Below are positions 9,660 to 33,922 of a stretch of 64,000 nt of DNA, piece after piece. The stretch is taken from IMG/VR virus record IMGVR_UViG_3300049460_000128, positions 186,001-250,000 of that record, one strand, 5' to 3'. Numbering within the stretch: position 1 is the stretch's first letter; each line of letters opens with the position of its first letter. The translations under genes and the position numbers were made by a program. The DNA is from a virus. The notes under the pieces were generated by a model that saw only the letters and a program-made list of their open reading frames with translations, was not told the origin of the DNA and did no database searches.

Positions 9660-11597
9660 TCAAGCTTGCTGTTTCAGCCACTCTTTATTGAACGGATACT
9701 GAATGATCTCGGTACTAAGTACCATATCATCTTTAGCCAGTTCAATGAACTCCTGTTGCGCGATGGTGTTTTCCTTCAACAGTGCATTCACGATACGCGC
9801 AAACAGTGGCTTATTGCCTTTGATGAGATCCATGGCCCGAGCGTATTGATCATTCAAGATCTGTTCAATGGCTTTATTAGTTGCCGACAGATCAGTGACG
9901 TGGGTGACGCCGCCATTGCCCTGAGCATCGACGCGCGCCAGAGTATCACCAAGGCCGTAGTTACGAACCATATCGCTTGCAATCTTGGTTGCACGACTCA
10001 AGTCGTGTGACGCGCCAGAGCTGCGGTTGTTTGCGCCGAAGAACACTTCCTCGGCAACCGTGCCCGCCAGATAAGTCGCGATCTCATCCAGGTGATCCTG
10101 TTTGGTCATGATCGCGCCGCTTGTAGTAGGCAGCATGTAGCCACCTTCAAACGAAGCAGGATTGATCTTGATCTCAATCGGAGCACTCTTGGTCAGCGCC
10201 GCGAATACAAAACCGTGACCAGTTTCATGCACGGCAACCAATGTCTTGGTGTCGAGTGTGGTCTTGGACTTCTTGAGGTTCAGTTCGAGATCGACTGGGA
10301 AGTTGGTACTTGCATTGTTCCCTGTAACCACGATCGACTTCGCATCAGCACTCATCTTCATGCCGACATCCAGATAACCATTCTCGATGGCCCAGAACGT
10401 AGCATCGACCAACACACCACTGAAGATCATGTGGATCGACGAGAACACAGGACGAGTACCCTGAGTTGGATACACGGAGTTGTTGTAGATCTCACGATGG
10501 ATCGACTTGTCCAACGTGAAGACGATATCCGATACCGCAGTCATCTCGTCGATGTAACGCTTGCAGGTCGACTCAATCAAACGCTCATACGACAACTTGC
10601 TCATCGATGGATAGATGATGTGGTTGTTGCCCATACGTGCGATCTGCTCTGGACGGAAACGACGCTTCAGATGACGCTTGATGTCAGTGCTGCTGATCTT
10701 CTTGGTCATGTCATGGTAGAAGTCAGCATCGGTATCGCAATCGTCCGTGCTGTCACTGCCAGTGAATGCCGAATCCAGATTGCCGGAGATGAAGATCAGG
10801 AGCTTCGTGTAATCGATTTCCCACGACACACGCTGTTGCTTGAGATCGGCCAATGCCAGGCTGGTGCGGTCTGCATCCCATTTCATGATCTCGGAAACAG
10901 ATTCACTCAAACGCAGAAGCTTCTTGAGATTCTTGGCTTCATACGGATAGACCTTGAACGCACGTTGCTTCTTGGCTTTCTTTGGCTTTTCTTCCTCGTC
11001 CTCGTCGAGATCATCGTCGTCTTCAGTACCAACACCATCCTGGTCCCATGCACGATATGCCAACATCATCTCGATCTCAGCAAAGATTGATGCGTCGGCG
11101 GAGAATTTGCCATCACTAAGCAAAGTCCAGACGTCCTGGAAACGCTCAACCTTAACATCACCACCCACTTCATCAACAGTACGGAAGCGCTGGATCTCAT
11201 CCAACAGCAAGATGCCTGGCTTACCTTCGTCGATGGTGCTGGTACCCAACAGTTTAGTGATGCTGTTGGCATTGTAGGACGAAGTAACGGAACCACCGTC
11301 CATTTGAACTTCAACGAACTTTTCGTTGAATTGCAACAACGATACGATACGACGTACCAGTTGCGTTTTTCCCACACCAGTCATACCCCAGAGGTTGATG
11401 ATGACCGGGCGAGTAATGATATCTGGGAAGATATACCATGCCGAAATGGCAGAGATTACCTTGTCAATGATTGTATCAAGACCAAAGAACTCAGTCTTCA
11501 GTTGCGCGGCCACGCTGGCAAGCTTTGCACGCTTTTCGGCAATGACTGTATTGTCCAGTTTGGCTTTGATCGGTACTACGTTGTTGCTTGCGGTCAT
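9660..11597 (-). CDS. Soluble FtsH-like AAA+ / M41 metalloprotease
   Basis: 645 aa from ATG 11597, which has AAAGG 9 bases upstream; a TTG 10 codons earlier also keeps the frame open. Walker A GMTGVGKTQLVRR and Walker B ILLLDEIQRF define an AAA+ domain interrupted by an acidic/lysine-rich insert (DDDDLDEDEEEKPKKAKK). The C-terminal part is an M41 peptidase: HETGH zinc site, AGTVAEEVFFG, and GASHDLSRATKIASDMVRNY with the third zinc ligand. Unlike FtsH it has no N-terminal membrane segments, and the ATPase looks closer to the ClpX/HslU type. It probably unfolds and degrades host or phage proteins. Confidence 0.88.
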   Translation of the reverse strand: MTASNNVVPIKAKLDNTVIAEKRAKLASVAAQLKTEFFGLDTIIDKVISAISAWYIFPDIITRPVIINLWGMTGVGKTQLVRRIVSLLQFNEKFVEVQMDGGSVTSSYNANSITKLLGTSTIDEGKPGILLLDEIQRFRTVDEVGGDVKVERFQDVWTLLSDGKFSADASIFAEIEMMLAYRAWDQDGVGTEDDDDLDEDEEEKPKKAKKQRAFKVYPYEAKNLKKLLRLSESVSEIMKWDADRTSLALADLKQQRVSWEIDYTKLLIFISGNLDSAFTGSDSTDDCDTDADFYHDMTKKISSTDIKRHLKRRFRPEQIARMGNNHIIYPSMSKLSYERLIESTCKRYIDEMTAVSDIVFTLDKSIHREIYNNSVYPTQGTRPVFSSIHMIFSGVLVDATFWAIENGYLDVGMKMSADAKSIVVTGNNASTNFPVDLELNLKKSKTTLDTKTLVAVHETGHGFVFAALTKSAPIEIKINPASFEGGYMLPTTSGAIMTKQDHLDEIATYLAGTVAEEVFFGANNRSSGASHDLSRATKIASDMVRNYGLGDTLARVDAQGNGGVTHVTDLSATNKAIEQILNDQYARAMDLIKGNKPLFARIVNALLKENTIAQQEFIELAKDDMVLSTEIIQYPFNKEWLKQQA

Positions 11598-11645
11598 GGG
11601 GAAGAGCCTTTTAATAATTGGAGGCAAGTTGTATTGCCAGTTGCC

Positions 11646-11691: not shown

Positions 11692-12096
11692 TTACGGAAT
11701 CACACAGTCAAGCGACTTCAACTGATCCATTAATTGCAGCTTACGAACCGCATAATAGGAGAACCAACGATCACGATTGTCCCATATGAATTCTTCATAC
11801 CGTGCCAACCCATTGCACGGACAGTCATCTGGAAATGCCATCTCATTGATCATCACATAATGGATACAGTCAACATCACGAACGATGATGTAGCTGTCTG
11901 GATCTTCCGCTGCCATCTTCTCCAGATCTGGAACAGTTTCATCCAAGTGACATACATACTCATCATGGATGTTACTGCTATCGATGGCAATATGCTCACG
12001 ATCACAATATGAACAATTGATCGCCGTTGCACCACCACCAGACAAAGAGTTCACAAACGCATCACTGACCTTGGGTCCATCATATTTTCTTTTCAT
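11692..12096 (-). CDS. Hypothetical protein with zinc-ribbon-like cysteines, 134 aa
   Basis: CSYCDREH (residues 28-35) and later C49 and DDCPC could bind a metal; spacing is irregular. Last gene of the small-protein array: its ATG overlaps the stop of the first FKL gene, so it shares that operon. It lacks the FKL motif. Confidence 0.75.
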   Translation of the reverse strand: MKRKYDGPKVSDAFVNSLSGGGATAINCSYCDREHIAIDSSNIHDEYVCHLDETVPDLEKMAAEDPDSYIIVRDVDCIHYVMINEMAFPDDCPCNGLARYEEFIWDNRDRWFSYYAVRKLQLMDQLKSLDCVIP

Positions 12097-12629
12097 ATAC
12101 TCAACTTAAACATTGTCATATCGGATTCAGTCATAGCAACCTTCCACTCAAAATCATGCAGCTCCTCGTCACCCAGGGCGTCATATATGGTTTTATACAA
12201 GTGAACTCTACCATTATGCCGGTTGATCAACTCATTGATTTCCGGCTTTAACATGAGATCAACATGGTGCCGTGGTACAACTATGCTATCCAACTGAGGG
12301 ACTTGTTTGAAATGAATAGTTGAACGAAACGCCTCAAAATGATCAGCAAACCAATCCTGCGAAATACGAAGCTCCGTCATATCTGGAAACTTATAGACGG
12401 ACAAGAACCAATAACCTAACTTCAACTCATAAGTCATATACTTGAGCTTGAACACTACCATATCGCCCAAGGAGTCAAACTCCATATAGGTCAAGAAGCC
12501 ATCGCCATCCGCATAACTCAACTTATGACCATCAGCCAAAATCAAACTCTCAGTGGTAAGAGCCAAGTCCCTAAGACTGGGATCATGCCCACACTGACCC
12601 TCATCATATATGGCAATGAAGTACGTCAT
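12093..12629 (-). CDS. FKL-family protein, double module, 178 aa
   Basis: The only visible fusion of two units of the array family. Copy one ends MEFDSLGDMVVFKLKYM (about residues 50-66) and copy two ends the protein with VAMTESDMTMFKLSI. A family unit is normally 62-106 aa, with a beta N-terminus, a helix and a C-terminal strand-helix holding F-(K/R)-L. The fusion shows that units can be joined in frame. ATGA overlap with the gene upstream. Confidence 0.85.
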   Translation of the reverse strand: MTYFIAIYDEGQCGHDPSLRDLALTTESLILADGHKLSYADGDGFLTYMEFDSLGDMVVFKLKYMTYELKLGYWFLSVYKFPDMTELRISQDWFADHFEAFRSTIHFKQVPQLDSIVVPRHHVDLMLKPEINELINRHNGRVHLYKTIYDALGDEELHDFEWKVAMTESDMTMFKLSI

Positions 12630-12838
12630 ATCAACACATCACTATACTTGAGTCGAAACATTACCGCCTGCTCATCACTCATAAACTGAATGTGAATGAA
12701 CCCCTGATCTATGAACAAAATCGTTGAGTCATATCCCTCAGATCTCAACTCACTAACAATCTCACCCTTCAACATGGGAAAACCCGTAGGCACACACAAC
12801 GCCTTTACGGCATTAGCAGTCAATCGAATATAACTCAT
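12626..12838 (-). CDS. FKL-family protein, 70 aa
   Basis: Motif IQFMSDEQAVMFRLKYS near the C-terminus. ATG 12838 overlaps the upstream stop as ATGA and is preferred over TTG 12844. Confidence 0.8.
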   Translation of the reverse strand: MSYIRLTANAVKALCVPTGFPMLKGEIVSELRSEGYDSTILFIDQGFIHIQFMSDEQAVMFRLKYSDVLI

Positions 12839-13086
12839 GGACAACTCAACTTGAATAGCATCAAGTCCTCTTCAGACTCAAAGGTAAGATACGGAGCATC
12901 AGTCTCCAACTCAACCTGACCATATCTGGTGTTTATAACAAACGGCTCCCGCCTACTAGACAATACACCTTTGTACTTGGCAACAACACCAGCATACGGC
13001 TCACGAATCGAAGACGGCGCATAGACAGCATACTGATTCATGGTACACTCACACCAGTCACTCGGTATTTTGATTGATATACTCAT
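12835..13086 (-). CDS. FKL-family protein, 83 aa
   Basis: N-terminus MSISIKIPSDWCE shows the I-x-I-P-x-x-W start seen in many members; C-terminus LTFESEEDLMLFKLSCP. Coupled to both neighbours by ATGA overlaps. Confidence 0.83.
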   Translation of the reverse strand: MSISIKIPSDWCECTMNQYAVYAPSSIREPYAGVVAKYKGVLSSRREPFVINTRYGQVELETDAPYLTFESEEDLMLFKLSCP

Positions 13087-13289
13087 AGGTGAGTCAACTT
13101 AAACAAGGCAGCCGAGGCTTCATCCGGAAACACAATACTGCAAAAACTCCAACCATGATGATCATCCCACTTAATGTCATACCCCATTCGTCTCGCTATA
13201 TCAATCACCTTATCAATATGACGGATCTGAGCAGTCGTGTAGGTATGCTGGTGATCATCAAAGACTTCAAGTTTAACGATTCCGGTCAT
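13083..13289 (-). CDS. FKL-family protein, 68 aa
   Basis: Ends IVFPDEASAALFKLTHL; its VFPDEASAALFKL is identical to that of the member ending at 18171, pointing to recent duplication or conversion. ATG 13289 chosen over GTG 13292. Confidence 0.82.
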   Translation of the reverse strand: MTGIVKLEVFDDHQHTYTTAQIRHIDKVIDIARRMGYDIKWDDHHGWSFCSIVFPDEASAALFKLTHL

Positions 13290-13566
13290 CACTTGGTATC
13301 ACATTAAGCCAATAGTCACTCATACTCAATTTAAACAAAACAGACTGTTCTGATGTCGTAAACTCCAGGTAGGTTTTTGGATTCTCGTCAAGAGTTTCGA
13401 CAGGAATGACCAGATTCAGCGTTCTTAGGTCAAACCCAGCATCCACGATTGCTAGCTGCATTGGGTACTTGAGGCCACCAAAACTCTTGGCCAATTTGCC
13501 ACCCATCATCACACTACGATGGTTCACCCAGTTGACCCAATGATCCGGTATTTCGATACGATCCAT
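13273..13566 (-). CDS. FKL-family protein with C-terminal tail, 97 aa
   Basis: Start ATG 13566 (MDRIEIPDHWVNW) matches the family N-terminus; the longer GTG frame would include the terminator hairpin. Motif LEFTTSEQSVLFKLSMS is followed by a 13-residue tail, so the motif need not be terminal. Confidence 0.8.
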   Translation of the reverse strand: MDRIEIPDHWVNWVNHRSVMMGGKLAKSFGGLKYPMQLAIVDAGFDLRTLNLVIPVETLDENPKTYLEFTTSEQSVLFKLSMSDYWLNVIPSDDRNR

Positions 13567-13571
13567 ATGCT

Positions 13572-13605
13572 TTATAAAAAACTTTGGTGCCACATTATGG
13601 CACCA
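13572..13605 (-). terminator. Intrinsic terminator inside the array
   Basis: TGGTGCCA/TGGCACCA stem (13586-13593 and 13599-13606 region) with a 5-base loop, then AAG and six U on the minus strand. It splits the array into at least two units. Confidence 0.65.
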
Positions 13606-13689
13606 TTTGTTGAGTTACTGCTGACCCATATATCATGTTACGGCGTCATGGATCGTCACCAGTCAGTCGTATGACTCTGGGATGACACC
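13606..13689. other. Intergenic gap in the array, 84 bases
   Basis: One of the few gaps inside the array. No convincing -35/-10 pair was found, although the gap sits between a stop and a terminator. Confidence 0.4.
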
Positions 13690-13965
13690 TTACATGTACG
13701 TGAGCTTAAACAGCGCAGCTTCGTCTTCATGCTCAAAATGCAGATATGGCAAGCTTACTGGAAATTTGAGTTTGATTGACTCGCCAGTATGAAGAGGAAA
13801 ATCGAAGATGACGTCCTCGGATTCCATCACCAGAGTTGCCGCATACTGACTTACGATGTTGATCTTTTCTGGACGTAATCCTGACTTAACTTCACCCAAC
13901 GCTGTAAACTTACGAACGCCGTAGAATATGTCGACCCAATCACTTGGTAGTTTTATTCGTATCAT
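13690..13965 (-). CDS. FKL-family protein, 91 aa
   Basis: N-terminus MIRIKLPSDWVDIFYG, C-terminus LHFEHEDEAALFKLTYM. Among the clearest full-length members; coupled upstream by ATGA. Confidence 0.85.
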   Translation of the reverse strand: MIRIKLPSDWVDIFYGVRKFTALGEVKSGLRPEKINIVSQYAATLVMESEDVIFDFPLHTGESIKLKFPVSLPYLHFEHEDEAALFKLTYM

Positions 13966-14282
13966 AGGTGGGTGAGCTTGAAAATAGTTGCCGCTGCGTC
14001 ATCATCGAATGCGACGTGTGGCCAATATTGGTCGGTTCTCTGGTAGGTATGGGACACAGTAAGACCATGCTCTGGTCCCAAGTCTGCAATCTTGACTGGG
14101 TGCATGATCATATAACCACCAGCCGCATTGACGATCTCCCAGTATTCATCATCCAAGCCATAATAGCCATGGGTTTGAGCTTTGACTACTCGATTTGACG
14201 GCAAGCCCTTGGCTGCTGAATGCCAGTAATCTCGGGCGTCGTACCACCACCAGAGATTGGGAGGGCGAAAAATTACTGGCAT
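13962..14282 (-). CDS. FKL-family protein, 106 aa
   Basis: Start ATG 14282 (MPVIFRPPNLWWWYD) overlaps the upstream gene by 10 bases. Ends VAFDDDAAATIFKLTHL. Longest single-module member of this cluster, with an aromatic-rich N-terminus. Confidence 0.82.
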   Translation of the reverse strand: MPVIFRPPNLWWWYDARDYWHSAAKGLPSNRVVKAQTHGYYGLDDEYWEIVNAAGGYMIMHPVKIADLGPEHGLTVSHTYQRTDQYWPHVAFDDDAAATIFKLTHL

Positions 14283-14536
14283 GATAGTTTGAACATCACC
14301 GCATCTTCTTCTGTTTGGAAGCATGCCATTATTTGATAATAGGGCTTTCGCATGGTTATATACTGGTCCCCATTATGGAACGAGTAATCCATGGATGTCT
14401 TACATCGCACAAGATGGCCATTGTGTTGCTTGACCATTGCCTCATAGGGCGAGTTATCAAGCTTAGCCATGAAAGCTTCCGCGACAAAGCTCCATTCGAT
14501 AGTCACATATTCTTCTGGAGTAGGAATCTGAATCAT
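14273..14536 (-). CDS. FKL-family protein, 87 aa
   Basis: N-terminus MIQIPTPEEYVTIEW; C-terminus ACFQTEEDAVMFKLSCQ. Confidence 0.84.
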   Translation of the reverse strand: MIQIPTPEEYVTIEWSFVAEAFMAKLDNSPYEAMVKQHNGHLVRCKTSMDYSFHNGDQYITMRKPYYQIMACFQTEEDAVMFKLSCQ

Positions 14537-14787
14537 AGCTCGGTCAACTTGAACAACACTGCATCAGCGTCAGTCTCAAAGGTCAGGCATGGACGCACGG
14601 CCACGTATGGATAGCTTGTACCATCGGGCAGATGCTTGACTAGCTCGTGACGCTCAAATGTGAATTGACAATTGAACTGTTCGAGTACGTGCAGACGCCC
14701 ATCGGTTAACCCTGACAGACGAAACGTTTCTTGCTTTGCATCAAAGCCCCATTTGCACCATTCATACGGTATAATAACTTTAGTCAT
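14533..14787 (-). CDS. FKL-family protein, 84 aa
   Basis: N-terminus MTKVIIPYEWCKWGF; C-terminus LTFETDADAVLFKLTEL. Confidence 0.84.
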   Translation of the reverse strand: MTKVIIPYEWCKWGFDAKQETFRLSGLTDGRLHVLEQFNCQFTFERHELVKHLPDGTSYPYVAVRPCLTFETDADAVLFKLTEL

Positions 14788-14981
14788 AGGTGTTTGAGTT
14801 TGAAAATTGCAGCGTCACCTTCGTTTTCAAACTCAATAACCCACAGGTAATGACCATCATTATCTGGAGCAGTCGCGAACACCTTGTAGCCATCAGCCCG
14901 ATAGGCGGCTATCTTGTTGTTGAATACCACATTAGGTCTGATCCTAAAGTAATCCTCAGCTAGTATGAAATGAACACTCAT
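14784..14981 (-). CDS. FKL-family protein, 65 aa
   Basis: One of the shortest members; little more than strand, helix and terminal motif IEFENEGDAAIFKLKHL. Confidence 0.82.
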   Translation of the reverse strand: MSVHFILAEDYFRIRPNVVFNNKIAAYRADGYKVFATAPDNDGHYLWVIEFENEGDAAIFKLKHL

Positions 14982-15217
14982 AGGTATGTTAGTTTGAACA
15001 TCACGGCATCTTCTTCATTGCGGAAGATCAACTTACAATATCTCCGTACATGCGGTATCATAATACCTTTATATGGCCTTTCTGATCTTTCAGTACAGGT
15101 TTTCCGTATAGCATGAACATCAGTCAAGTATTGTTCTATTTCTTGATTGATGAAGGTTGGCTCACCCCTCCAGGCAATGGCTGCTGGGCTACCGGGAGGT
15201 ATGATAAGCTCGATCAT
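14978..15217 (-). CDS. FKL-family protein, 79 aa
   Basis: N-terminus MIELIIPPGSP; basic middle; ends LIFRNEEDAVMFKLTYL. Confidence 0.83.
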   Translation of the reverse strand: MIELIIPPGSPAAIAWRGEPTFINQEIEQYLTDVHAIRKTCTERSERPYKGIMIPHVRRYCKLIFRNEEDAVMFKLTYL

Positions 15218-15465
15218 TTGCCCGCGTAGGCCTTGAGTGTCTCCTTTATTGCTTCCTGCTTGGCTTCTTCGGGAGTCAGCACTGGCTTCAAAGTTTCAAC
15301 GAGCAGAACCAGATCATGGGCTGTATTGGAAATCGACAAGCGAGTGTGTTTGCCGTATTGCTTCTTGAATTCCTTCAGGCGGTCAATTGCGTCGGTGATA
15401 TCAGTATTCAGAATTGGCAATTGATTCACTACTGCCCAGGTCATTGGTTGTGTGTTTTTAGTCAT
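15214..15465 (-). CDS. Unrelated small protein inside the array, 83 aa
   Basis: No FKL motif. Helical, with a Lys/Glu-rich C-terminus (LTPEEAKQEAIKETLKAYAG). Overlaps the gene upstream by 8 bases and the one downstream by 4, so it is part of the operon. Not recognised. Confidence 0.78.
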   Translation of the reverse strand: MTKNTQPMTWAVVNQLPILNTDITDAIDRLKEFKKQYGKHTRLSISNTAHDLVLLVETLKPVLTPEEAKQEAIKETLKAYAGK

Positions 15466-15682
15466 TTGGTATACTCAGTTTGAAAATTGCCAGATCACTC
15501 TCGGTCATGAACAGAAGAGTGTTGTTCCTGCCATTGTATATGGCGCCAAGATTATTTGCTAACTCTTGACACCAACTTGTCAACACACAGATGCGATCAC
15601 GATCCTCATTTGCCATAAGGAAAGTGACTCGATAGAAGTCAGTCTCTTTACCTGTTGGGGTTGGCAGTTTGAATGAAATCAT
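15458..15682 (-). CDS. FKL-family protein, 74 aa
   Basis: Start MISFKLPTPTG overlaps the C-terminal tail of the upstream member by 35 bases, an unusually long overlap. Motif LLFMTESDLAIFKLSIP. Confidence 0.8.
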   Translation of the reverse strand: MISFKLPTPTGKETDFYRVTFLMANEDRDRICVLTSWCQELANNLGAIYNGRNNTLLFMTESDLAIFKLSIPND

Positions 15683-15899
15683 TGTATGTCAATTTGAATA
15701 AAGCTGCGTCCGTGTCAGTCTCGAATTTGATTACGTAGCGACGATGCATCACCCATGTATATTGAGTGTCCCGTTGATATTCATGTTCAATGGCATGTCC
15801 GGCCAGGCGGAACACATTAAGGTATTCATCTTCACCTAACACAATCTCTTGACACAAATTGAAGTGCGGATGCCATCTCGAAATTGGAATTGTGATCAT
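15648..15899 (-). CDS. FKL-family protein with tail, 83 aa
   Basis: Motif IKFETDTDAALFKLTYN followed by a short tail whose DNA also encodes the next gene's start. Confidence 0.82.
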   Translation of the reverse strand: MITIPISRWHPHFNLCQEIVLGEDEYLNVFRLAGHAIEHEYQRDTQYTWVMHRRYVIKFETDTDAALFKLTYNDFIQTANPNR

Positions 15900-16183
15900 A
15901 AGTGCGTGAGTTTGAACAAGGCAGCTTCATCTTGAGTGGGAAATACCAGCCAATAACGAAGGTCAAGTGTTTGAATGATAGTGTCGCACTTCAGATGCTC
16001 TAAGGCTGGGCGCAGGATGGGATTGAAGCGGATGAAATGTGTGATGCCGGCCGGTGGCCATTTCCATGGAGTCACTTCCAATGCGGTATCAGGCAAGGCC
16101 ACTGGATCACGATAGATCAGCACCTTACCGATAAAGAATTCACATATGAAGCGTTCGAGACGCGGCTCGTTGATGTAGTCCAT
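15896..16183 (-). CDS. FKL-family protein, 95 aa
   Basis: Start ATG 16183 (MDYINEPRLERF) is placed after a -10-like TATACT (16191-16196); the frame stays open to 16207. Ends LVFPTQDEAALFKLTHL. May head a sub-operon. Confidence 0.78.
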   Translation of the reverse strand: MDYINEPRLERFICEFFIGKVLIYRDPVALPDTALEVTPWKWPPAGITHFIRFNPILRPALEHLKCDTIIQTLDLRYWLVFPTQDEAALFKLTHL

Positions 16184-16231
16184 ATTGCCAGTATAACAAA
16201 GCCACATGATGGCAAGTCTGGCAATATTTCA

Positions 16232-16459
16232 CTATTGAGTGAATGGTTCCATGTGGATCTTATCGGCCCACTTGAGACGAAACACGGCCATATCCTCTTC
16301 GTCGTCAAGCCATATCATCTGCTGATTATGGCCAAGTTTTGATGTGATGGATCCCACACGACCATCAAGACGAATCTCCGCAAGATGCGATTGGTATCGA
16401 GTGAAGCAATCGTGATAATTGCGCCATAGTGGCGACAAGATTATGTATGCGTAAGTCAT
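16232..16459 (-). CDS. FKL-family protein with tail, 75 aa
   Basis: Motif IWLDDEEDMAVFRLKWA with R in place of K, then a 10-residue tail. Coupled upstream by ATGA. Confidence 0.8.
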   Translation of the reverse strand: MTYAYIILSPLWRNYHDCFTRYQSHLAEIRLDGRVGSITSKLGHNQQMIWLDDEEDMAVFRLKWADKIHMEPFTQ

Positions 16460-16713
16460 AGGTGAGTCAATTTGAACAAGGCCGCAGCCTCTTCGGAGTC
16501 AAAGAATAAACGGGCATTCTCGATATCAATCTTCACCTGATTATCCTTACAAGTCTTATAGAAGTCTTCTCGTAGGAACCGACGGCGCACAGGCAAACCA
16601 CCGTCGTTCCATCCCGAAAGAACGGTTATGACACCAAGTGGGCAGGCCAATGAAGCCACGCCGGAAGTCGCGGCATCTTCTGGATCAACAATCTCACCGA
16701 ATATGAAACTCAT
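16456..16713 (-). CDS. FKL-family protein, 85 aa
   Basis: Start ATG 16713 (MSFIFGEIVDPED) has AGG 8 bases before it; the longer frame to 16791 would lie inside the neighbour. Ends LFFDSEEAAALFKLTHL. Confidence 0.8.
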   Translation of the reverse strand: MSFIFGEIVDPEDAATSGVASLACPLGVITVLSGWNDGGLPVRRRFLREDFYKTCKDNQVKIDIENARLFFDSEEAAALFKLTHL

Positions 16714-16972
16714 ATTGTAGCCTAAAAAGTACCGCGTCTGCTTCAGTCTCGAAGATAAAATACGCTGACGACATACCTTCGCCATATCCAATTTTCACCT
16801 CATCGTTGGTCTGCTTACGGGCCTCAGACATGGATTCAATGAGATCAAACAATGGACTTACCGTTGCGGGGTCGCGAGTGTAGAAGGTCAGGTGATAGCT
16901 AATTTCACCACAGTGATTTGATAGAATTCCAGATCGCTCATGTAGTCGATGAGCATTTGATGACCACGCCAT
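16694..16972 (-). CDS. FKL-family protein with unclear start
   Basis: Motif FIFETEADAVLFRLQYE is clear, but the first ATG (16972) overlaps the upstream gene by 85 bases and gives an N-terminus unlike the family. By family comparison the protein should begin near ISYHLTFYTRDP (about 16909), where the in-frame codon is ATT after GGTGAA. A frameshift joining it to the end of the upstream gene (VVKLAIT) is another explanation. Confidence 0.65.
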   Translation of the reverse strand: MAWSSNAHRLHERSGILSNHCGEISYHLTFYTRDPATVSPLFDLIESMSEARKQTNDEVKIGYGEGMSSAYFIFETEADAVLFRLQYEFHIR

Positions 16973-17166
16973 AACGGGTGATCAGCCGTAGTGCTCAGAT
17001 GTTCAGGTGTCTTGGGCAAAAGCTCGTGCAAGACTATTGTGTGCAAGCCTGGGTTTTCTGGAAGAATCCAGTCGCACCAAGCTTCTGCTTCGTCTTCTTC
17101 TACATCGTATTTCTTTGCCGCGTATTCGATCAGATCGTCGGCTTCAACTCGTACATTATGGTGCAT
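16888..17166 (-). CDS. Acidic small protein inside the array, 92 aa
   Basis: Acidic and helical (YDVEEDEAEAWCDWILPENP). It lacks the FKL motif, though it ends VVKLAIT, faintly like one. Not recognised. Confidence 0.72.
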   Translation of the reverse strand: MHHNVRVEADDLIEYAAKKYDVEEDEAEAWCDWILPENPGLHTIVLHELLPKTPEHLSTTADHPLWRGHQMLIDYMSDLEFYQITVVKLAIT

Positions 17167-17168
17167 GA

Positions 17169-17375
17169 TTACAGGTGGGTTAGTTTAAAAAGTGCTGCGG
17201 CATCTTCGGTTCTGAAAAACATCAAACCACGTTTGGTGTCATAGCTGATCTTGTGTTCACGCAGTAAAGCACCGAACTCAGCAGTCACATGTGACTGTTC
17301 TTTCCAGTCACTAGTGTAATAGTAGAAGATACGAAATTTGTGGGGAATTTCAACTTTAATCTTGGAACGTTTCAT
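17169..17375 (-). CDS. FKL-family protein, 68 aa
   Basis: Basic N-terminus MKRSKIKVEIPHKF; ends MFFRTEDAAALFKLTHL. ATGA coupling upstream. Confidence 0.83.
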   Translation of the reverse strand: MKRSKIKVEIPHKFRIFYYYTSDWKEQSHVTAEFGALLREHKISYDTKRGLMFFRTEDAAALFKLTHL

Positions 17376-17584
17376 AGGTATGTGAGTTTGAAAAGTGCTG
17401 CCTCTGCTTCATTCTGGAAGTCTATGTAATAGCATAGCTTGAAGTTGAATTGGCCATATTCTTCGTGTTTGGTTTTCACCTTAAAGCCAGCTGCTTCTAA
17501 TTTATCGAACCACGCATACTCGGCAAGGGCTGTCACACTCGAGACTGAGTATGCCATTCGATCAAGCAAAATTATTCTAACCAT
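17372..17584 (-). CDS. FKL-family protein, 70 aa
   Basis: MVRIILLDRMAY start, eight-base overlap with the upstream gene; ends IDFQNEAEAALFKLTYL. Confidence 0.83.
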   Translation of the reverse strand: MVRIILLDRMAYSVSSVTALAEYAWFDKLEAAGFKVKTKHEEYGQFNFKLCYYIDFQNEAEAALFKLTYL

Positions 17585-17765
17585 AGTGCGTTAACTTCCA
17601 AATGACTGCATCGGCTTCAGTTTCAAACTCCATCCAAATTTGTCGTCGACCATCCACTTCACCCCACCTGGGTTCATGGCCTTTACTTCGCCATTCTATC
17701 AGATCTCGAACGAAGGAATTATTGCGTGGCCTCAGTATAGCATCGTAAAGGATTACTCGTATCAT
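17577..17765 (-). CDS. FKL-family protein, 62 aa
   Basis: Shortest clear member, a minimal version of the fold: MIRVILYDAIL start, MEFETEADAVIWKLTHY end, with W replacing F. Confidence 0.82.
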   Translation of the reverse strand: MIRVILYDAILRPRNNSFVRDLIEWRSKGHEPRWGEVDGRRQIWMEFETEADAVIWKLTHYG

Positions 17766-17959
17766 AGGAATTTCAATTTGAATATGGCAGCGTCATCGTC
17801 AGTATCAAAATCCACATAGTATCGATAGATGGCATACCGTGTGTCGTAGTTATATTGCACATCCGATCTAACCTCGAAACCAGCACTCGTTATTTGCGTC
17901 AGCAGTGTGCCCCATTGCTTGAAGTTGTATCGTGTTTGATCGAGTTCGATGTGAATCAT
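17762..17959 (-). CDS. FKL-family protein, 65 aa
   Basis: MIHIELDQTRYNF start; ends VDFDTDDDAAIFKLKFL, with an unusually acidic motif. Confidence 0.82.
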   Translation of the reverse strand: MIHIELDQTRYNFKQWGTLLTQITSAGFEVRSDVQYNYDTRYAIYRYYVDFDTDDDAAIFKLKFL

Positions 17960-18174
17960 TTGACGAAGATTTCCGGATAGGTGAGTTTGAATATCGCAGC
18001 CGCTTCTTCACTACTGAAGACCACCTTGTATTTCTTGTATTTACGGCCGGTCTCATCCAGATACTCATCGAAGTCAAATTTCACTTCTTCTTTGATGAAG
18101 ACTTCTCGGGCAGCAAGCCAACGATCCTTGGTCCACAAATGGTCGATGTTGATGCCTACTGTCAAGATATTCAC
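17956..18174 (-). CDS. FKL-family protein, 72 aa
   Basis: Lys/Glu-rich middle (EVFIKEEVKFDFDEYLDE); motif VVFSSEEAAAIFKLTYP plus five residues. Confidence 0.82.
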   Translation of the reverse strand: MNILTVGINIDHLWTKDRWLAAREVFIKEEVKFDFDEYLDETGRKYKKYKVVFSSEEAAAIFKLTYPEIFVK

Positions 18175-18428
18175 AGTACATTCAGCTTAAACAATGCCGC
18201 AGAAGCTTCGTCTGGGAACACCAGAGTCATACGTCGATTGTCGTTGATTGCTAGATGGGTACGATCAGTTAGATTATGTTTTTCCAAATATGCCTTGATT
18301 TCTGGCATTTTGAATTCCCAATGTGATGGGGTTCCCGGCCACACTTGTTTAGTGATACTTGCCGGATCGTATTCGTCATATACCAGTGCCGCTTTAAACA
18401 GGTGATAGGGGATAATAATAGGTACCAT
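18171..18428 (-). CDS. FKL-family protein, 85 aa
   Basis: Start ATG 18428 (MVPIIIPYHLFKAAL) by family comparison; ends LVFPDEASAALFKLNVL, near-identical in its last part to the member ending at 13083. Confidence 0.8.
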   Translation of the reverse strand: MVPIIIPYHLFKAALVYDEYDPASITKQVWPGTPSHWEFKMPEIKAYLEKHNLTDRTHLAINDNRRMTLVFPDEASAALFKLNVL

Positions 18429-18480
18429 TCTAGCCTCATTAAGTTTGCCACATGATAGTATGGCACCACACATAGGTAAA

Positions 18481-18690
18481 TTACATATGCGTCAACTTGA
18501 ACAAGGCAGCTTCAGTTTCATCAACGAACGGTATGTAGAAAAAACGTTTATCGGCCTCATCGTAATAGTTGACCATACATCCAAGTTTCTGATACTTAGA
18601 CGCCTGTGCGCGTAACCGCTCACGATGATCCAGTTCACTTTGTGGTGAATGATAACTGATTTTGGTGCTGCCAATTATGAGTTTGATCAT
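18481..18690 (-). CDS. FKL-family protein, 69 aa
   Basis: MIKLIIGSTKISY start; basic middle; ends IPFVDETEAALFKLTHM. A 52-base gap with a TGCCA/TGGCA inverted repeat separates it from the next gene. Confidence 0.82.
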   Translation of the reverse strand: MIKLIIGSTKISYHSPQSELDHRERLRAQASKYQKLGCMVNYYDEADKRFFYIPFVDETEAALFKLTHM

Positions 18691-18920
18691 AGATGAGTGA
18701 GCTTAAAGATTGCGGCGGTGGCATCATCCGAAAATCTAATCTTCAGTAAATGTGGTGCGGTCACTTCGCCATCACCAATAACAGTTCCACCCGCAGTCTT
18801 AATCAGTCGTATGGCGTCATTGGTGACGCCCCAGTACATGCAGTCGATGTACCAAGGGCTAACACTGTCTCGGGGTATAACTTCGATTAGCCATTGTTCT
18901 GGTACTGGAAGGTCGATCAT
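18687..18920 (-). CDS. FKL-family protein, 77 aa
   Basis: ATG 18920 (MIDLPVPEQW) overlaps the upstream stop as TGATG; a TTG one codon earlier is less likely. Ends IRFSDDATAAIFKLTHL. Confidence 0.82.
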   Translation of the reverse strand: MIDLPVPEQWLIEVIPRDSVSPWYIDCMYWGVTNDAIRLIKTAGGTVIGDGEVTAPHLLKIRFSDDATAAIFKLTHL

Positions 18921-19144
18921 CAATATGTCAATCTAAAAAGTACCGCTTCTTCTTCGGTTTTGAGGTACAGGTATGGTTCGTCAAATGGCTCGTCAACTTC
19001 AAAGTTTTCACCCAACAGTTCTTTGAGAATTGGTTTCGCATACTCAGATGGAAACTTTGCCAAAACACAATCATGGAAACATGGAGCCGATTTGATGTCA
19101 ATATCCCAACACCAAAATTTATCTGGCAACGGTACGCGAATCAT
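18920..19144 (-). CDS. FKL-family protein, 74 aa
   Basis: MIRVPLPDKFWCWDI start; acidic middle; ends LYLKTEEEAVLFRLTY. Confidence 0.82.
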   Translation of the reverse strand: MIRVPLPDKFWCWDIDIKSAPCFHDCVLAKFPSEYAKPILKELLGENFEVDEPFDEPYLYLKTEEEAVLFRLTY

Positions 19145-19419
19145 TGGAATCGACCTGCAATAAGTTCTTCAGGGAGTTCGCTCGCATCGACGCCATATTG
19201 TAGCTTGAATACTGCTGCTTCTGCTATCTCATTATCTGGAAAGATGGCATACCAGACTGTTGGATCATCGCCTATGTATTTGGGCGAACAGTCATGTGCT
19301 ATTTTTGCCTCATCCAACTCTGCAATGATGACGTTACAACGGGCCAGACCCGCAGTAGCTTCCTCATATGTGGCACCAGGCTTGAATCTATTTTTGATGT
19401 GGAAGATGATTCGAATCAT
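19141..19419 (-). CDS. FKL-family protein with tail, 92 aa
   Basis: Motif AIFPDNEIAEAAVFKLQYG has a two-residue insertion before FKL and a 17-residue tail. Confidence 0.8.
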   Translation of the reverse strand: MIRIIFHIKNRFKPGATYEEATAGLARCNVIIAELDEAKIAHDCSPKYIGDDPTVWYAIFPDNEIAEAAVFKLQYGVDASELPEELIAGRFQ

Positions 19420-19655
19420 AGGTGTGTGAGCTTAAAAATGGCTGCTTCGGACTCGGTGGCGAATTCACACCAGAAGATATACGAAATGCTTTTGTCATAT
19501 ATAAACGACGTTGGCAAATCCATCATGCACAGCTTTTTGTTGTCGGTTGGTCTAGCTTCGAGTTTGATGTTGTTATCTGTTAGCATTTGCAGAAATTCAA
19601 CCGTATTTTTGAAGGTGTTCATGAACACCTGGACCTTGATTGTTTGGAGTGCCAT
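19416..19655 (-). CDS. FKL-family protein, 79 aa
   Basis: MALQTIKVQVFMNTF start, TAATG overlap upstream; ends CEFATESEAAIFKLTHL. Confidence 0.82.
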   Translation of the reverse strand: MALQTIKVQVFMNTFKNTVEFLQMLTDNNIKLEARPTDNKKLCMMDLPTSFIYDKSISYIFWCEFATESEAAIFKLTHL

Positions 19656-19882
19656 TACATGTAGGTGAGTTTGAAGATTGCTGCTTGTGTATCGTCGGCA
19701 AATACCACCACAACTTCAACATCATATTGCTCGTTGAGATACGAAAGCGAATAACCCTCGTCTTTGAGTTGGCGCTCAAGAACTGCACGACGTTCTTCTT
19801 CAATGATCCATTCAGATTTAGACCATATCTTCTCACGCATAAATGCGTACTTCAAATAGGAGTACAGGTAATGGCTTCTCAT
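19655..19882 (-). CDS. FKL-family protein, 75 aa
   Basis: ATG 19882 (MRSHYLYSYLKYAF) gives an ATGA overlap with the upstream stop. Long charged helix, then VVFADDTQAAIFKLTYM. Confidence 0.8.
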   Translation of the reverse strand: MRSHYLYSYLKYAFMREKIWSKSEWIIEEERRAVLERQLKDEGYSLSYLNEQYDVEVVVVFADDTQAAIFKLTYM

Positions 19883-20148
19883 TGATGATGTCCGTATTTC
19901 AGTTTCCACATGACTGCTTCTTCATCACTGTTAAACACCAGATGGATATCCCAGTTAACTTTTTCTGGTTTCAACGTGTAGGCTTCAGCAGGCAATGGTT
20001 GTCTTGCGATAACCCAACCCGGGAAATCGAAACGTACACCAGTCATGTCGATGCCAATAGGTACCATTACGCGCTTGAACATGGAAGTGTACGTTGAGGG
20101 ATGAGTCACGTACTCTATCCACGAGTTTGGTACTCGTATTCTGGTCAT
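19879..20148 (-). CDS. FKL-family protein, 89 aa
   Basis: MTRIRVPNSWIEYV start; motif LVFNSDEEAVMWKLKYG with W in place of F. Confidence 0.83.
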   Translation of the reverse strand: MTRIRVPNSWIEYVTHPSTYTSMFKRVMVPIGIDMTGVRFDFPGWVIARQPLPAEAYTLKPEKVNWDIHLVFNSDEEAVMWKLKYGHHQ

Positions 20149-20351
20149 AGGTGTGTCAACTTAAACATTGCGGCATCTTCTTCTGTATCGAATTCCATCC
20201 ATGCCTTTATCAAAATCGGGCGCATCATGAGTCCATTATATTCGGACTGACGTACGACTGGATGATTTTCGTTCTCCAACTTGTGTACACAGCGTATGGC
20301 CTCAACGGTAGATGGTGTGCCATACATGTCAAATAATAAAATCTTGATCAT
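20145..20351 (-). CDS. FKL-family protein, 68 aa
   Basis: MIKILLFDMYGTP start, similar to the member at 17577-17765; ends MEFDTEEDAAMFKLTHL. Confidence 0.83.
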   Translation of the reverse strand: MIKILLFDMYGTPSTVEAIRCVHKLENENHPVVRQSEYNGLMMRPILIKAWMEFDTEEDAAMFKLTHL

Positions 20352-20542
20352 AGGTGCGTCAATTTGAACAATGCAGCTTCATCTTCGGTATCAAACCACA
20401 TGTAGATCCACGAGTCATCCATTGCATATTGATAGCCCAGACGAATGATCTTAACACCCATGGCATCTACTTTGGACCAATCACGCCGCATTGCTGGCAC
20501 CGCCGGGTCTTCTGGTAACTTGATGACATTTAGACGGATCAT
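20348..20542 (-). CDS. FKL-family protein, 64 aa
   Basis: ATG 20542 (MIRLNVIKLPED) gives the usual 4-base overlap; ends MWFDTEDEAALFKLTHL. Confidence 0.82.
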   Translation of the reverse strand: MIRLNVIKLPEDPAVPAMRRDWSKVDAMGVKIIRLGYQYAMDDSWIYMWFDTEDEAALFKLTHL

Positions 20543-20739
20543 ATTCTGAGCTTCCATATGGCGTATGCGGCCTCATTGGGGAATTCAATATACCATTTCA
20601 AATGACGTCCCACCTTTTCATACTTGAAAATACTGCCATCAAGCCGTGCTAAGTCGATTTGCTTTGAGACCAATTCATATCGTTCTTTAGTTACATCGTC
20701 TTCTTCTTCCGAATCTAACACCTTGATTGTTATGGTCAT
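20539..20739 (-). CDS. FKL-family protein, 66 aa
   Basis: MTITIKVLDSEEEDDV start; ends IEFPNEAAYAIWKLRI, a diverged motif with W and R. Confidence 0.8.
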   Translation of the reverse strand: MTITIKVLDSEEEDDVTKERYELVSKQIDLARLDGSIFKYEKVGRHLKWYIEFPNEAAYAIWKLRI

Positions 20740-20954
20740 AGGTGCGTGAGTTTAAAAAGCATAGCTTCCTCTTCGGTCTCAAATTCCCAATAAGCCTGAA
20801 CAAGCCCTTCTGTTTCTTCCCGCACGATTGGGCGTGGTAAGTCAGGATGAGCAGACACCCAGGTTGCAGCGGCGCCGCGTAACTTCAAATGGAGCATAAT
20901 AGTGTTTCCTGATACACCAATTGCGCCCAATTCACGAAAGATTACCTTAGCCAT
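20736..20954 (-). CDS. FKL-family protein, 72 aa
   Basis: Ends WEFETEEEAMLFKLTHL. Shares GLVQAY-x-EFETEEEA with its upstream neighbour, so the two are a recent tandem duplicate. Confidence 0.83.
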   Translation of the reverse strand: MAKVIFRELGAIGVSGNTIMLHLKLRGAAATWVSAHPDLPRPIVREETEGLVQAYWEFETEEEAMLFKLTHL

Positions 20955-21177
20955 GCAATGACTCCCAATTGGTTAATTTGTACAGGGCAGCTTCTTCTTC
21001 AGTCTCAAACTCAACATAAGCTTGCACGAGACCCTGACCTTGGTTACGGGTGACTGGACGTTGCTGTGAAGGATTTTTGACGTGCCAGCGATTGTATTTC
21101 ATCATCAACCACATTTCAGTTGTGAGGGCCGCCGAGTTGGAATTGGTTTGACGTTCGTCAATGATCAATCGAAACAT
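20947..21177 (-). CDS. FKL-family protein, 76 aa
   Basis: Motif VEFETEEEAALYKLTNW (Y in place of F) plus a short tail. Tandem duplicate partner of the gene at 20736-20954; their N-terminal halves are already dissimilar. Confidence 0.83.
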   Translation of the reverse strand: MFRLIIDERQTNSNSAALTTEMWLMMKYNRWHVKNPSQQRPVTRNQGQGLVQAYVEFETEEEAALYKLTNWESLHG

Positions 21178-21179
21178 GA

Positions 21180-21398
21180 TTACATGTGAGTGAGTTTGAA
21201 GAGGAGCGCCTCTTCATCGTTGGGAAATTCCCAATAGAGATAAATTTCTTCGTCTGTTTCGTCAATACTGAGTAGTGGCATCCAGTTAAATTGATTGCGC
21301 CAACCATAACTAATAAGCCTCACATCAAAGCGCTGCATGTCTTGCATAAAGTCATCGCCAGTACTGAGAGGCTCGCGGTATACTATTAGTCGATACAT
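21180..21398 (-). CDS. FKL-family protein, 72 aa
   Basis: MYRLIVYREPLSTG start right after a terminator hairpin; ends WEFPNDEEALLFKLTHM. No separate Shine-Dalgarno is visible other than GGGGAG in the hairpin stem. Confidence 0.82.
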   Translation of the reverse strand: MYRLIVYREPLSTGDDFMQDMQRFDVRLISYGWRNQFNWMPLLSIDETDEEIYLYWEFPNDEEALLFKLTHM

Positions 21399-21400
21399 GA

Positions 21401-21421
21401 TAAAAGGGGATTGCTCCCCTT
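21401..21421 (-). terminator. Hairpin/terminator in the array
   Basis: AAGGGGA/TCCCCTT stem with a GCAA tetraloop followed by UU-A-U on the minus strand. It sits right before the start codon at 21398, so it may attenuate transcription or hide the ribosome site. Confidence 0.6.
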
Positions 21422-21453
21422 CCCTTACTTAATTGCTTCATTGAATAGTTACA

Positions 21454-21678
21454 TCAAGTAGCACCCGGCCACCTGTGACTCAATTTGTACATCATGGCTT
21501 CTTCCTCATCATCGAACAGAAAGTAAACACTGATGCCTTTCTTGCCGCCACGCATTTGAAGAAGTTCCTCGTCGAGCGCCGCACTGTTATTCCAGTTACT
21601 CATAAATTCCCACAAGATATCCCATGACCCAACAGGATACGGGTGAGGAACAAAGCGGACGACGAGTTCGTACATCAT
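21454..21678 (-). CDS. FKL-family protein, 74 aa
   Basis: MMYELVVRFVPHPYP start; motif FLFDDEEEAMMYKLSHR plus five residues. Confidence 0.81.
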   Translation of the reverse strand: MMYELVVRFVPHPYPVGSWDILWEFMSNWNNSAALDEELLQMRGGKKGISVYFLFDDEEEAMMYKLSHRWPGAT

Positions 21679-22052
21679 TGAGCCTTGAAGTCGGCCAGCA
21701 AACGCTCTTCAGCAGCCACACCAGTCAGACCGCGATACCACAAGGTAGCCGAGATAGCCACTGAGTCCCGTTGGATTTCATGCAAGACACGGTTAGCCAT
21801 TTCCAGGTTGTATGTGACCAATACTGGGGTCTGACCCGCGACACTGTCAGCAACCGCAGTAAAGCCATGGCCACTCAAAGCAGCCACGAGAGTGTCGAGG
21901 CTTTTGTGATTGCGTTCATCAACCTCAGGGTAGTGCATGTGGAGGATTGCCATCGGGGTGCCGCCCATCTCGCGAGCAAACGCCTGGAAGACGTCATTGT
22001 GGCTGAGGCCGATCATGTCGTCGGCGATGGTGCTAAAGTCTGGTGTATTCAT
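21675..22052 (-). CDS. Unrelated hypothetical protein in the array, 125 aa
   Basis: No FKL motif. Alpha/beta protein, MNTPDFSTIADDMIGLSHND start. ATGA coupling to the FKL gene downstream. Not recognised. Confidence 0.78.
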   Translation of the reverse strand: MNTPDFSTIADDMIGLSHNDVFQAFAREMGGTPMAILHMHYPEVDERNHKSLDTLVAALSGHGFTAVADSVAGQTPVLVTYNLEMANRVLHEIQRDSVAISATLWYRGLTGVAAEERLLADFKAQ

Positions 22053-22085
22053 TTTATTGGTATGCTATGTGTTTAAATTGCGAAT

Positions 22086-22367
22086 TTATTCAACGTTGGT
22101 TTTCATATCGTTAACGAAGCTATAACGCCGCAATGCCGTGATGGTGTCGTCATACGTCAATCGAAATACGACAAGCTCGGATTCGGTATCAAATTCCACA
22201 TGGTAGTGTTCAATCACGTTATAATGACTATAGCCACCTTTGGACGGGTGGATTTCTTCAGACACATGCCCCACCTTATATCCAAGTGACTCCAGCATGG
22301 CAATGAATGCCAACACCTCTTGATTACTACCACGACATGAATAGCTGTGAAACTGATACTGAATCAT
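22086..22367 (-). CDS. FKL-family protein with tail, 93 aa
   Basis: Motif VEFDTESELVVFRLTYD followed by a 20-residue tail. Second gene after the presumed start of the array operon. Confidence 0.8.
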   Translation of the reverse strand: MIQYQFHSYSCRGSNQEVLAFIAMLESLGYKVGHVSEEIHPSKGGYSHYNVIEHYHVEFDTESELVVFRLTYDDTITALRRYSFVNDMKTNVE

Positions 22368-22567
22368 TGTTGTGATGTGATGACTATTGGCAACACGACT
22401 TCGCGGAAGTGTTGCGCTGCTTCTTCGGTAGCAAAGTCAATCGCACCCTGATACTTGCCTGCCTCTTGGATTTCGCGATATTGAAATCCAGCAGCTTTCA
22501 TATTTCCTTGCATCAGCATGCGAGGGAATTGGTCTTGCTGGATTTCAAATGTAACAGTGATTGTCAT
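22364..22567 (-). CDS. Degenerate FKL-family protein, 67 aa
   Basis: MTITVTFEIQQDQF start and IDFATEEAAQHFREVVL near the end: the strand and A-x-x-F survive but FKL has become FRE. First gene of the array in transcription order. Confidence 0.75.
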   Translation of the reverse strand: MTITVTFEIQQDQFPRMLMQGNMKAAGFQYREIQEAGKYQGAIDFATEEAAQHFREVVLPIVITSQQ

Positions 22568-23393: not shown

Positions 23394-24413
23394 TCATTTG
23401 CCGATGACATTGTCAAACAGGAAGCAATGTGCTCTTGTGGCCACATTATAACCACGAGCAATTGCGCCTTCAGCGACCTTGGCTTGAACCAAACGTTGAC
23501 CCGCCGCGGTGGCACCTACGGGCATGATCCAAACAGGCCAGGTGACGCCAGCAGCGCGGAACAAAGCAGTCGCACGTTCTACCTCATCCCATGCACGATC
23601 GCTGCCATCCGACACGAATTTCAGCTGGCCGGCGTTGCTGAGCGCAGCATACGCGGCTACGATTTCTGGCTTGATGGCGTCATCCCATTTTTCGCCACTC
23701 AGGAACAGTTTAGGCGACACAGACCAGAACCACTCAACACCCTGAAGTGCTTCAACGGCAGGAGGTAGGCCCGTGAACGAATCAGCGCACAGATTTTGCA
23801 GGTCAGTCATGTAGAAGCTTTGCTGCATGGCTTCGCTGTCGATGGTATCAGCATCTGGGAAATGACCGCTCAGATAGCTGGAGAATTTGTCGCGTGCCTT
23901 TTGCGTGCCGTTTGTTTCAACAGTCACGTACTTGGGCATGTTGCCGCGCTTTGCGAACTCTAGCATGATGTCCACGATTGCGTTCTGGGACATCATTGGC
24001 TCGCCGCCCGTAAAGGCCATGTGAGTCCATTGACCAGACTTTGGATGCAGGAAACGACCGTCGGGATTGCTTGGCGATTTCAGGAAGGCTTCCAGCTCAT
24101 CACAGATCTTTTCCACCGACCCTTTGCGGGCAAGGTGTGCGTATTTTTTCGACCACGAATACGAGCTGTCACAACCTTTATTGAACACTGGAAGTTCTTC
24201 CATGCTCTTGTAAGGGGTGATGTCGATCTTGCGGTAATCCAAATCCCATGTTTCAGGCTGATCTGGATTCGTTTGGCCGAAGCCCTCACATTCGAAGTTA
24301 CAGCCCCAGAAACGGATCCAAATTGTCGGAATACCGGTGTATCTTCCTTCGCCCTGGATTGTGTTACCAAAAATCTCAGAGTACTGGTACTCTTTAATGC
24401 GTGTAGTAGTCAT
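23394..24413 (-). CDS. queE: QueE, 7-carboxy-7-deazaguanine synthase (radical SAM)
   Basis: 339 aa. N-terminal GNTIQGEGRYTGIPTIWIRF is the QueE substrate/SAM loop and is followed by C38-x3-C42. The third cysteine usual at +3 is absent; C81 in NKGCDSSYSW is the likely third cluster ligand, giving an atypical C-x3-C-x38-C arrangement with an insert. THMAFTGGEPMMSQ is the GGEP SAM motif. The enzyme converts 6-carboxy-tetrahydropterin to CDG on the route to preQ0. FolE and two QueD-like genes lie within 6 kb. Confidence 0.9.
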   Translation of the reverse strand: MTTTRIKEYQYSEIFGNTIQGEGRYTGIPTIWIRFWGCNFECEGFGQTNPDQPETWDLDYRKIDITPYKSMEELPVFNKGCDSSYSWSKKYAHLARKGSVEKICDELEAFLKSPSNPDGRFLHPKSGQWTHMAFTGGEPMMSQNAIVDIMLEFAKRGNMPKYVTVETNGTQKARDKFSSYLSGHFPDADTIDSEAMQQSFYMTDLQNLCADSFTGLPPAVEALQGVEWFWSVSPKLFLSGEKWDDAIKPEIVAAYAALSNAGQLKFVSDGSDRAWDEVERATALFRAAGVTWPVWIMPVGATAAGQRLVQAKVAEGAIARGYNVATRAHCFLFDNVIGK

Positions 24414-24469: not shown

Positions 24470-24472
24470 TAG

Positions 24473-33176: not shown

Positions 33177-33241
33177 GATGAATTGGTAGATTAGGTGCCA
33201 TAGTATGGCACGCCAAACTGGTTGCCACAATAATACCTGAA
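33177..33241. repeat. GTGCCA/TGGCAC inverted repeat between FKL genes
   Basis: GTGCCATAGTATGGCAC around 33196-33212. A related palindrome is the terminator stem at 13586-13606 and a half-matching one lies near 18450, so a GTGCCA palindrome recurs in gaps between FKL genes. Confidence 0.5.
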
Positions 33242-33876: not shown

Positions 33877-33894
33877 GAATACTCCTTTGTTGTC

Positions 33895-33922
33895 AGTATA
33901 AAGCAAAAATCCCTTAGAACAA
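33895..33922 (-). promoter_or_regulatory. Sigma70-like promoter overlapping a terminator
   Basis: Minus-strand TTGTTC (33917-33922), 16-base spacer, TATACT (33895-33900). The -35 lies inside the terminator stem that ends the clamp transcript. Confidence 0.6.

Follow-up and report, generated by a model that had tools for sequence, protein, structure and literature searches.

A head-to-tail array of 38 small paralogous genes at a conserved locus of an environmental phage record

The DNA analyzed here (the window, 64,000 nucleotides) comprises bases 186001-250000 of the IMG/VR virus record IMGVR_UViG_3300049460_000128, which is 296,594 bases long in all and may be only a fragment of a phage genome. 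Between a QueE-like gene and a gene for an AAA + Peptidase_M41 protease lies a series of short genes whose products share a C-terminal strand-helix motif. We refer to them as FKL genes and to the series as array 1 (Table 1). The region 12093-22567 contains 42 open reading frames (ORFs), all on the minus strand, head to tail and almost without spacers. Four-base ATGA overlaps, a pattern of translational coupling, occur at 22 of the 41 junctions, and a Shine-Dalgarno core precedes three of the 42 starts, against 9 of 21 for other genes. Thirty-eight of the ORFs belong to the family (median length 78 amino acids, aa): 37 carry a clear FKL-type motif and the 38th, 20539-20739, a divergent form. 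ORFs 15214-15465 and 21675-22052 are not members, and 22364-22567 is a doubtful one (expectation value, E, of 1.3). A preliminary description had counted 38 short genes plus one degenerate copy on one strand in about 10.5 kb, and this count is exactly confirmed. It does not give the full extent of the family: there is a second array, about 15 copies lie elsewhere in the record, and other phages contain hundreds. Promoter- and terminator-like sites in the region were no more frequent than in shuffled sequence, and no promoter is claimed.

The motif reads F-x5-A-x2-F-K-L-T-aromatic (for membership, F-x5-A-x2-F-K/R-L-x-aromatic) and spans a strand and a helix. The helix that follows the conserved F, A-[VAM]-[LMI]-F-K-L-T-[WYH], is hydrophobic nearly all round, K and T being the polar exceptions; several of its columns were demanded by the search pattern, the independent ones being +7, +8 and +13. 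A 27-column profile of the C-terminal block was trained on 18 members in five cross-validation trials. At E<0.01 each trial picked up 23-25 of the 26 members held out, 20539-20739 being the sole extra ORF; no shuffled ORF scored below E 1.1. With codon usage learned from the other genes of the window, 40 of the 42 ORFs had the best codon score of the six frames. Cross-validation, shuffles and codon score together rule out chance or a frame artefact. Since the F and K codons of the motif vary freely (about 50:50, the same as elsewhere), it is the protein sequence of the motif that is conserved, and an RNA or DNA signal near the start of the next gene can be discarded. The leucine of the KL pair is never encoded by CTT (0 of 37, against about 19% elsewhere in the same genes); avoidance of HindIII sites was considered as the cause and rejected, as the window holds 24 AAGCTT sites where about 16 are expected.

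Identity between paralogs of array 1 is mostly about 20-35%, and their closest matches are mostly other members of the same array. Comparison of a profile from the window-based alignment with one from a nearly disjoint set of other phages gave E 8e-13. Members with E near the threshold are individually not secure. Cross-validation and full-length homology nevertheless show that the members are related and form one paralogous family. The preliminary description was also correct on the shared C-terminal motif, with the one divergent form noted above, while the N-terminal I-x-(I/L)-P-x-x-W that it ascribed to many members is present in its strict form in 3 of 38 and in a relaxed form in 11 of 38.

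It is conceivable that FKL products belong to the virion, either as structural or as packaged components; heterogeneous decoration proteins or internal proteins with a common C-terminal assembly tag would be examples. A constant C-terminus with a variable remainder does resemble a targeting or assembly tag, and 98 of 149 relatives have tails of three aa or fewer. However, several paralog pairs align over their full length, which rules out a tag on unrelated proteins and indicates one domain, and array 1 lies outside the virion module, among genes for DNA modification, repair and nucleotide metabolism. A structural role is therefore very unlikely.

Table 1. Positions of the FKL genes and of the features that flank or interrupt them (numbering of the window)
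Feature	Position	Strand	Remarks
Array 1	12093..22567	-	38 FKL-family genes and one degenerate copy; QueE on one side, AAA/M41 protease gene on the other
FKL gene	12093..12629	-	178 aa, two domain copies (motifs at aa 49 and 164)
FKL gene	12626..12844	-	
FKL gene	12835..13086	-	strict I-x-I-P-x-x-W
FKL gene	13083..13292	-	
FKL gene	13273..13593	-	true start probably downstream of hairpin 13605-13585
Terminator-like hairpin and T-run	13585..13605	-	within array 1; weak
FKL gene	13690..13965	-	
FKL gene	13962..14324	-	
FKL gene	14273..14536	-	
FKL gene	14533..14787	-	
FKL gene	14784..14981	-	
FKL gene	14978..15217	-	
FKL gene	15458..15682	-	
FKL gene	15648..15899	-	
FKL gene	15896..16207	-	
FKL gene	16232..16459	-	
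FKL gene	16456..16791	-	
FKL gene	16694..16972	-	
Degenerate FKL copy	16888..17166	-	ending ...FYQITVVKLAIT
FKL gene	17169..17375	-	
FKL gene	17372..17584	-	predicted structure beta-alpha-beta-beta-alpha, pLDDT 92.3
FKL gene	17577..17765	-	
FKL gene	17762..17959	-	
FKL gene	17956..18174	-	
FKL gene	18171..18473	-	
FKL gene	18481..18690	-	
FKL gene	18687..18923	-	
FKL gene	18920..19144	-	
FKL gene	19141..19419	-	
FKL gene	19416..19655	-	
FKL gene	19655..19909	-	
FKL gene	19879..20148	-	
FKL gene	20145..20351	-	
FKL gene	20348..20557	-	
FKL gene	20539..20739	-	divergent motif ...AYAIWKL, E 2e-4
FKL gene	20736..20954	-	
FKL gene	20947..21177	-	
FKL gene	21180..21398	-	
FKL gene	21454..21678	-	
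FKL gene	22086..22367	-	
QueE-like radical-SAM gene	23394..24413	-	conserved upstream anchor of the array locus; name read from sequence, weak Pfam hit
5'-3' exonuclease gene	7604..8629	-	conserved downstream anchor of the array locus
AAA + Peptidase_M41 (FtsH-type) gene	9660..11627	-	closely downstream of array 1
Array 2	30498..33906	-	seven longer FKL-family genes (108-128 aa), interrupted by 31162-31722 and 31722-32147
FKL gene, array 2	30498..30824	-	
FKL gene, array 2	30821..31186	-	
FKL gene, array 2	32144..32530	-	
FKL gene, array 2	32521..32856	-	
FKL gene, array 2	32847..33230	-	
FKL gene, array 2	33242..33583	-	
FKL gene, array 2	33580..33906	-	

The array occupies a fixed place. Three IMG/VR relatives (G001, G002 and G003) share with the window the gene order QueE - FKL cluster - homolog of 8669-9583 - 5'-3' exonuclease - ... 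- MoxR - VWA; their clusters hold about 8, 2-3 and 12 FKL genes, respectively. Among 22 distinct contigs with both anchors, the interval from QueE to the exonuclease measures 0.69-4.34 kb and contains 0-10 FKL genes by a stricter count, whereas in the window it measures 14.8 kb and contains 38. Sequence changes quickly as well. Reciprocal-best pairs of G001 and G003, the closest pair among the relatives, have a median identity of 43% for FKL genes and 80% for other genes; between array 1 and the three relatives, 0-2 reciprocal-best FKL pairs were found, while other genes are 54-59% identical. Judged from these comparisons, array 1 expanded locally in one lineage and diverged fast, at a locus that is conserved while its content is not. 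Fast change of both copy number and sequence at a fixed locus is what would be expected if variety pays, as had been proposed.

Such turnover might also be largely neutral: recombination would duplicate small genes, which would then drift and disappear, variety bringing no gain. Consistent with this, copy number changes freely at the locus (from 0 to 38) and one degenerate copy is present. However, an array this diverged would, if neutral, be full of stops, whereas 37 of the 38 copies keep an open frame and a clear helix motif, and 40 of the 42 ORFs retain the codon usage of the phage in frame. With frames and helix preserved in nearly every copy despite very low mutual identity, we consider a neutral array quite unlikely.

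The protease gene beside the array allows another explanation, namely that FKL products are adaptors that deliver host proteins to an AAA+ protease, for example the nearby FtsH-type enzyme, with the constant helix as delivery signal. One 134-aa gene (11692-12096) separates the protease gene from array 1, and the protease gene was not found in the four relatives searched, all with small arrays or none at that place. An account of phage SPO1 also describes a host-takeover protein that modulates the host ClpCP in an adaptor-like manner (PMC6873191). On the other hand, G001, G003 and Sinorhizobium phage Phosso have FKL arrays without that protease, and a single adjacency is weak evidence. We regard delivery to a protease as very improbable.

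Structure was predicted with AlphaFold2 for two members, as single chains and from paralog alignments. The product of 17372-17584, with 31 relatives, gave the order beta-alpha-beta-beta-alpha (predicted local distance difference test, pLDDT, 92.3; predicted template modelling score, pTM, 0.75), and a distant member, with 64 relatives, gave the same order (pLDDT 82). A Foldseek search of the PDB with the FKL model produced no significant match (best E 0.32); with the distant member, many uncharacterised small proteins of uncultured phages were matched at probability 1.0. As modelled, the fold is that of the first five ferredoxin-like or RRM elements minus the last strand. The likeness to these folds put forward earlier thus holds for the order of elements and no further: the model stops at the second helix and lacks the fourth strand of an RRM, and third-strand aromatics of the RNP1 type are not enriched family-wide (14% at -3 and 8% at -5, against a background of 14%), although they reach 41% and 17%, respectively, in the window members. 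Because of the absent strand and the lack of such enrichment, the domain is not a complete RRM or ferredoxin fold. FKL members are mostly acidic (median isoelectric point, pI, about 5.5, range 4.3-9.7; net charge mostly -8 to +1) and have a cysteine content of 1.3%. A DNA mimic of the strongly acidic Ocr type was ruled out on charge.

The FKL domain is also found fused to other domains. Two Microvirga proteins, L158:5557-6009 and L176:1096-1557, consist of an XRE helix-turn-helix (HTH) N-terminus, which exceeds the Pfam cut-off for HTH_3, and an FKL C-terminus (E 2e-5). They may descend from one fusion; an integrase gene lies near that in L158, and a search of plasmids for the XRE-FKL protein found none. 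In phages, FKL follows a zinc ribbon (Zn_ribbon_4) in L084:1035-1487 and a DUF6745-type repeat region in L086:10074-10565. Further, a 442-aa protein with an FKL end was read as a putative coiled coil plus winged helix, and the N-terminus of L165:5558-6226 looks winged-helix-like, both without confirmation by Pfam. RAM- and ACT-type domains are small alpha/beta domains at the C-terminus of HTH regulators, the position that FKL takes in the XRE fusions, but no sequence similarity or significant structural similarity between them and FKL was found.

These fusions bear on whether FKL proteins bind nucleic acid in an RRM-like manner, or form a set of phage regulators that control transcription or organise DNA, similar to the expanded zinc ribbons of phage G. 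Three findings argue for such a role: the first five elements follow the RRM order, there is a profile match, although weak, to the nucleolin RRM (E 0.004), and FKL occurs fused to HTH and to zinc-ribbon domains. The last RRM strand is missing, however; the RNP1 platform is absent from the family despite the raised value at -3 in the window, most members are acidic, and the fusions rather suggest that other domains supply DNA binding. Taken together, nucleic-acid binding appears unlikely.

Outside the window the family is widespread in some phages and absent from others. At E<=0.01, 40 FKL places were counted in the cultured Sinorhizobium phage Phosso and one in Agrobacterium phage Atu_ph07, while T4, phiKZ, phage G, RaK2, S-PM2, P-SSM2, CcrColossus and phiM12 gave no match. 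The regions read of the three IMG/VR relatives contain 22-34 members each. In IMG/VR, 86 stretches fitted a DNA pattern for D/E-A-x2-FKLTW-x-stop, and 80 loci were obtained; profile-positive ORFs were present in all 80 (304 in total). Dense arrays occur in other environmental phage contigs, such as L130 (21 in 13 kb) and L125 (17 in 11 kb). Searches with single proteins recovered no relatives in phages or IMG/VR.

A scan of genome collections detected FKL domains in a few alphaproteobacteria as well, confirmed by a model not trained on them. In the Microvirga family, 8 of 298 genomes were positive at E<=1e-3, and in its order 1 of 398 at E<=1e-4; the scan used one motif variant and is not a census. 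Since the bacterial copies are rare and several adjoin integrases or resolvases, they look, from their sequence context, like mobile-element genes. FKL could be a general phage docking module, used as a combinatorial panel of heterodimers or adaptors, with the HTH fusions of host mobile elements sensing or answering FKL-bearing phages. We hold this broader proposal to be improbable.

What the evolutionary pattern and the modular fusions best support is that array 1 encodes a panel of proteins that interact with the host, share one docking domain and turn over fast, an explanation that we put forward tentatively, at somewhat less than even chances. Each FKL product would be a single beta-alpha-beta-beta-alpha domain. 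Since the C-terminal helix is both hydrophobic and constant, it suggests a shared contact surface, which may serve for docking or dimerization, while the preceding strands, loops and inserts are strongly diversified. The products would be made together from a translationally coupled mRNA, each would have its own, different binding partner among host or mobile-element proteins, and the set would act as fast-turnover host-takeover or counter-defence factors. Several observations weigh against this. No host protein or defence system could be linked to any FKL member. The fold, with its best PDB match at E 0.32, offers no catalytic or binding clue, and a docking role for the helix is suggested by its hydrophobicity only. 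Agrobacterium phage Atu_ph07, a cultured relative, manages with at most one member. Finally, some members, few and scattered, show 71-73% identity in the closest pair; such good conservation means that the family also has stable roles.

Expanded sets of small phage genes are already known. The nearest in scale is the zinc-ribbon expansion of Bacillus phage G to about 35 copies, termed unprecedented by its authors (PMC7824862). There, too, one small domain expanded to several dozen copies in one lineage of giant phage, but the domain is a zinc ribbon, in contrast to the cysteine-poor FKL domain, and phage G has no FKL matches. The host-takeover genes of phage SPO1 are not known to form a single paralogous family, whereas all 38 genes of array 1 are paralogs. 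According to the SPO1 account, that cluster comprises 26 genes, one of them acting on ClpCP, and its genes are thought to hit different host processes (PMC6873191); it would be the nearest system in use if the panel explanation is right, the comparison concerning only how such a set might work. As far as the comparisons reach, neither of these two sets belongs to the FKL family.

Pfam, PHROGs, NCBIfam and PADLOC contained no family convincingly common to FKL members, in agreement with the earlier statement that the family has no known name; PADLOC, which covers defence proteins only, gave no matches for the window members. Phage Rha TIGR02681 was weakly matched by one window member (E 0.006), the match covering the final two strands of that member plus the C-terminal helix. 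Kinship with Rha or antirepressors was rejected, as only 1 of 32 members matched and phi80 Rha was not hit when profiles were compared. The motif appeared in no open-licence paper searched, the two text matches being unrelated. The FKL domain, its copy number per phage and its fixed locus are thus not described in the open-licence papers or databases searched; an earlier annotation unlinked to FKL is possible, because a domain of this small size is poorly detected by single-sequence database scans.

The protein family delimited here has no name and counts hundreds of members among environmental giant phages. An iterated profile finds at least 59 in this one record (44 in the window and 15 outside). 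Phosso provides a cultured system for studying FKL, and the QueE and exonuclease anchors allow gain and loss of array genes to be tracked across phages. If the products of array 1 are indeed a panel of host-directed binders, they would amount to a library, made by nature, of small adaptors or inhibitors of the host, and it would become testable why giant phages retain so many small genes.

The second array in the window, array 2 (Table 1), is recognized by models trained on array 1 alone, which recover 5-7 of its 7 members. On one side of it is a sliding clamp gene (33987-34733), on the other are genes past a glycosylase-like gene (31162-31722); in Phosso the clamp and glycosylase genes are adjacent, about 100 bases apart. 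Further FKL places in the whole record are near 17.7, 183-184, 253, 258-264, 270 and 288 kb. Two other ORFs of the window, 41362-41850 and 56693-57430 (both minus strand), are possible divergent relatives (RFFFESEASQVAFALKF; LKHEDDVLMTKLTY), and the former looks, by eye, like conserved FKL proteins of 277-310 aa in G001 and G003.

The DNA polymerase encoded in the window is 52% identical to that of Phosso, 49% to that of Atu_ph07 and 42% to that of the RaK2 group. As these are the nearest named phages, the phage is, on polymerase sequence, assigned to the giant T4-related phages, and by this kinship its hosts are probably alphaproteobacteria. Adjoining the DNA polymerase gene is a GIY-YIG endonuclease gene, likely homing (37968-38555, plus strand). 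Between QueE and array 1, on the strand opposite to both, a C2H2-finger + DUF723 protein is encoded (22650-23393, plus strand), which looks like a stand-alone endonuclease. The region 23394-26213 (minus strand) holds the QueE-like gene and a GTP cyclohydrolase (FolE-like) gene, and the presence of these two suggests that the phage carries 7-deazaguanine DNA modification.

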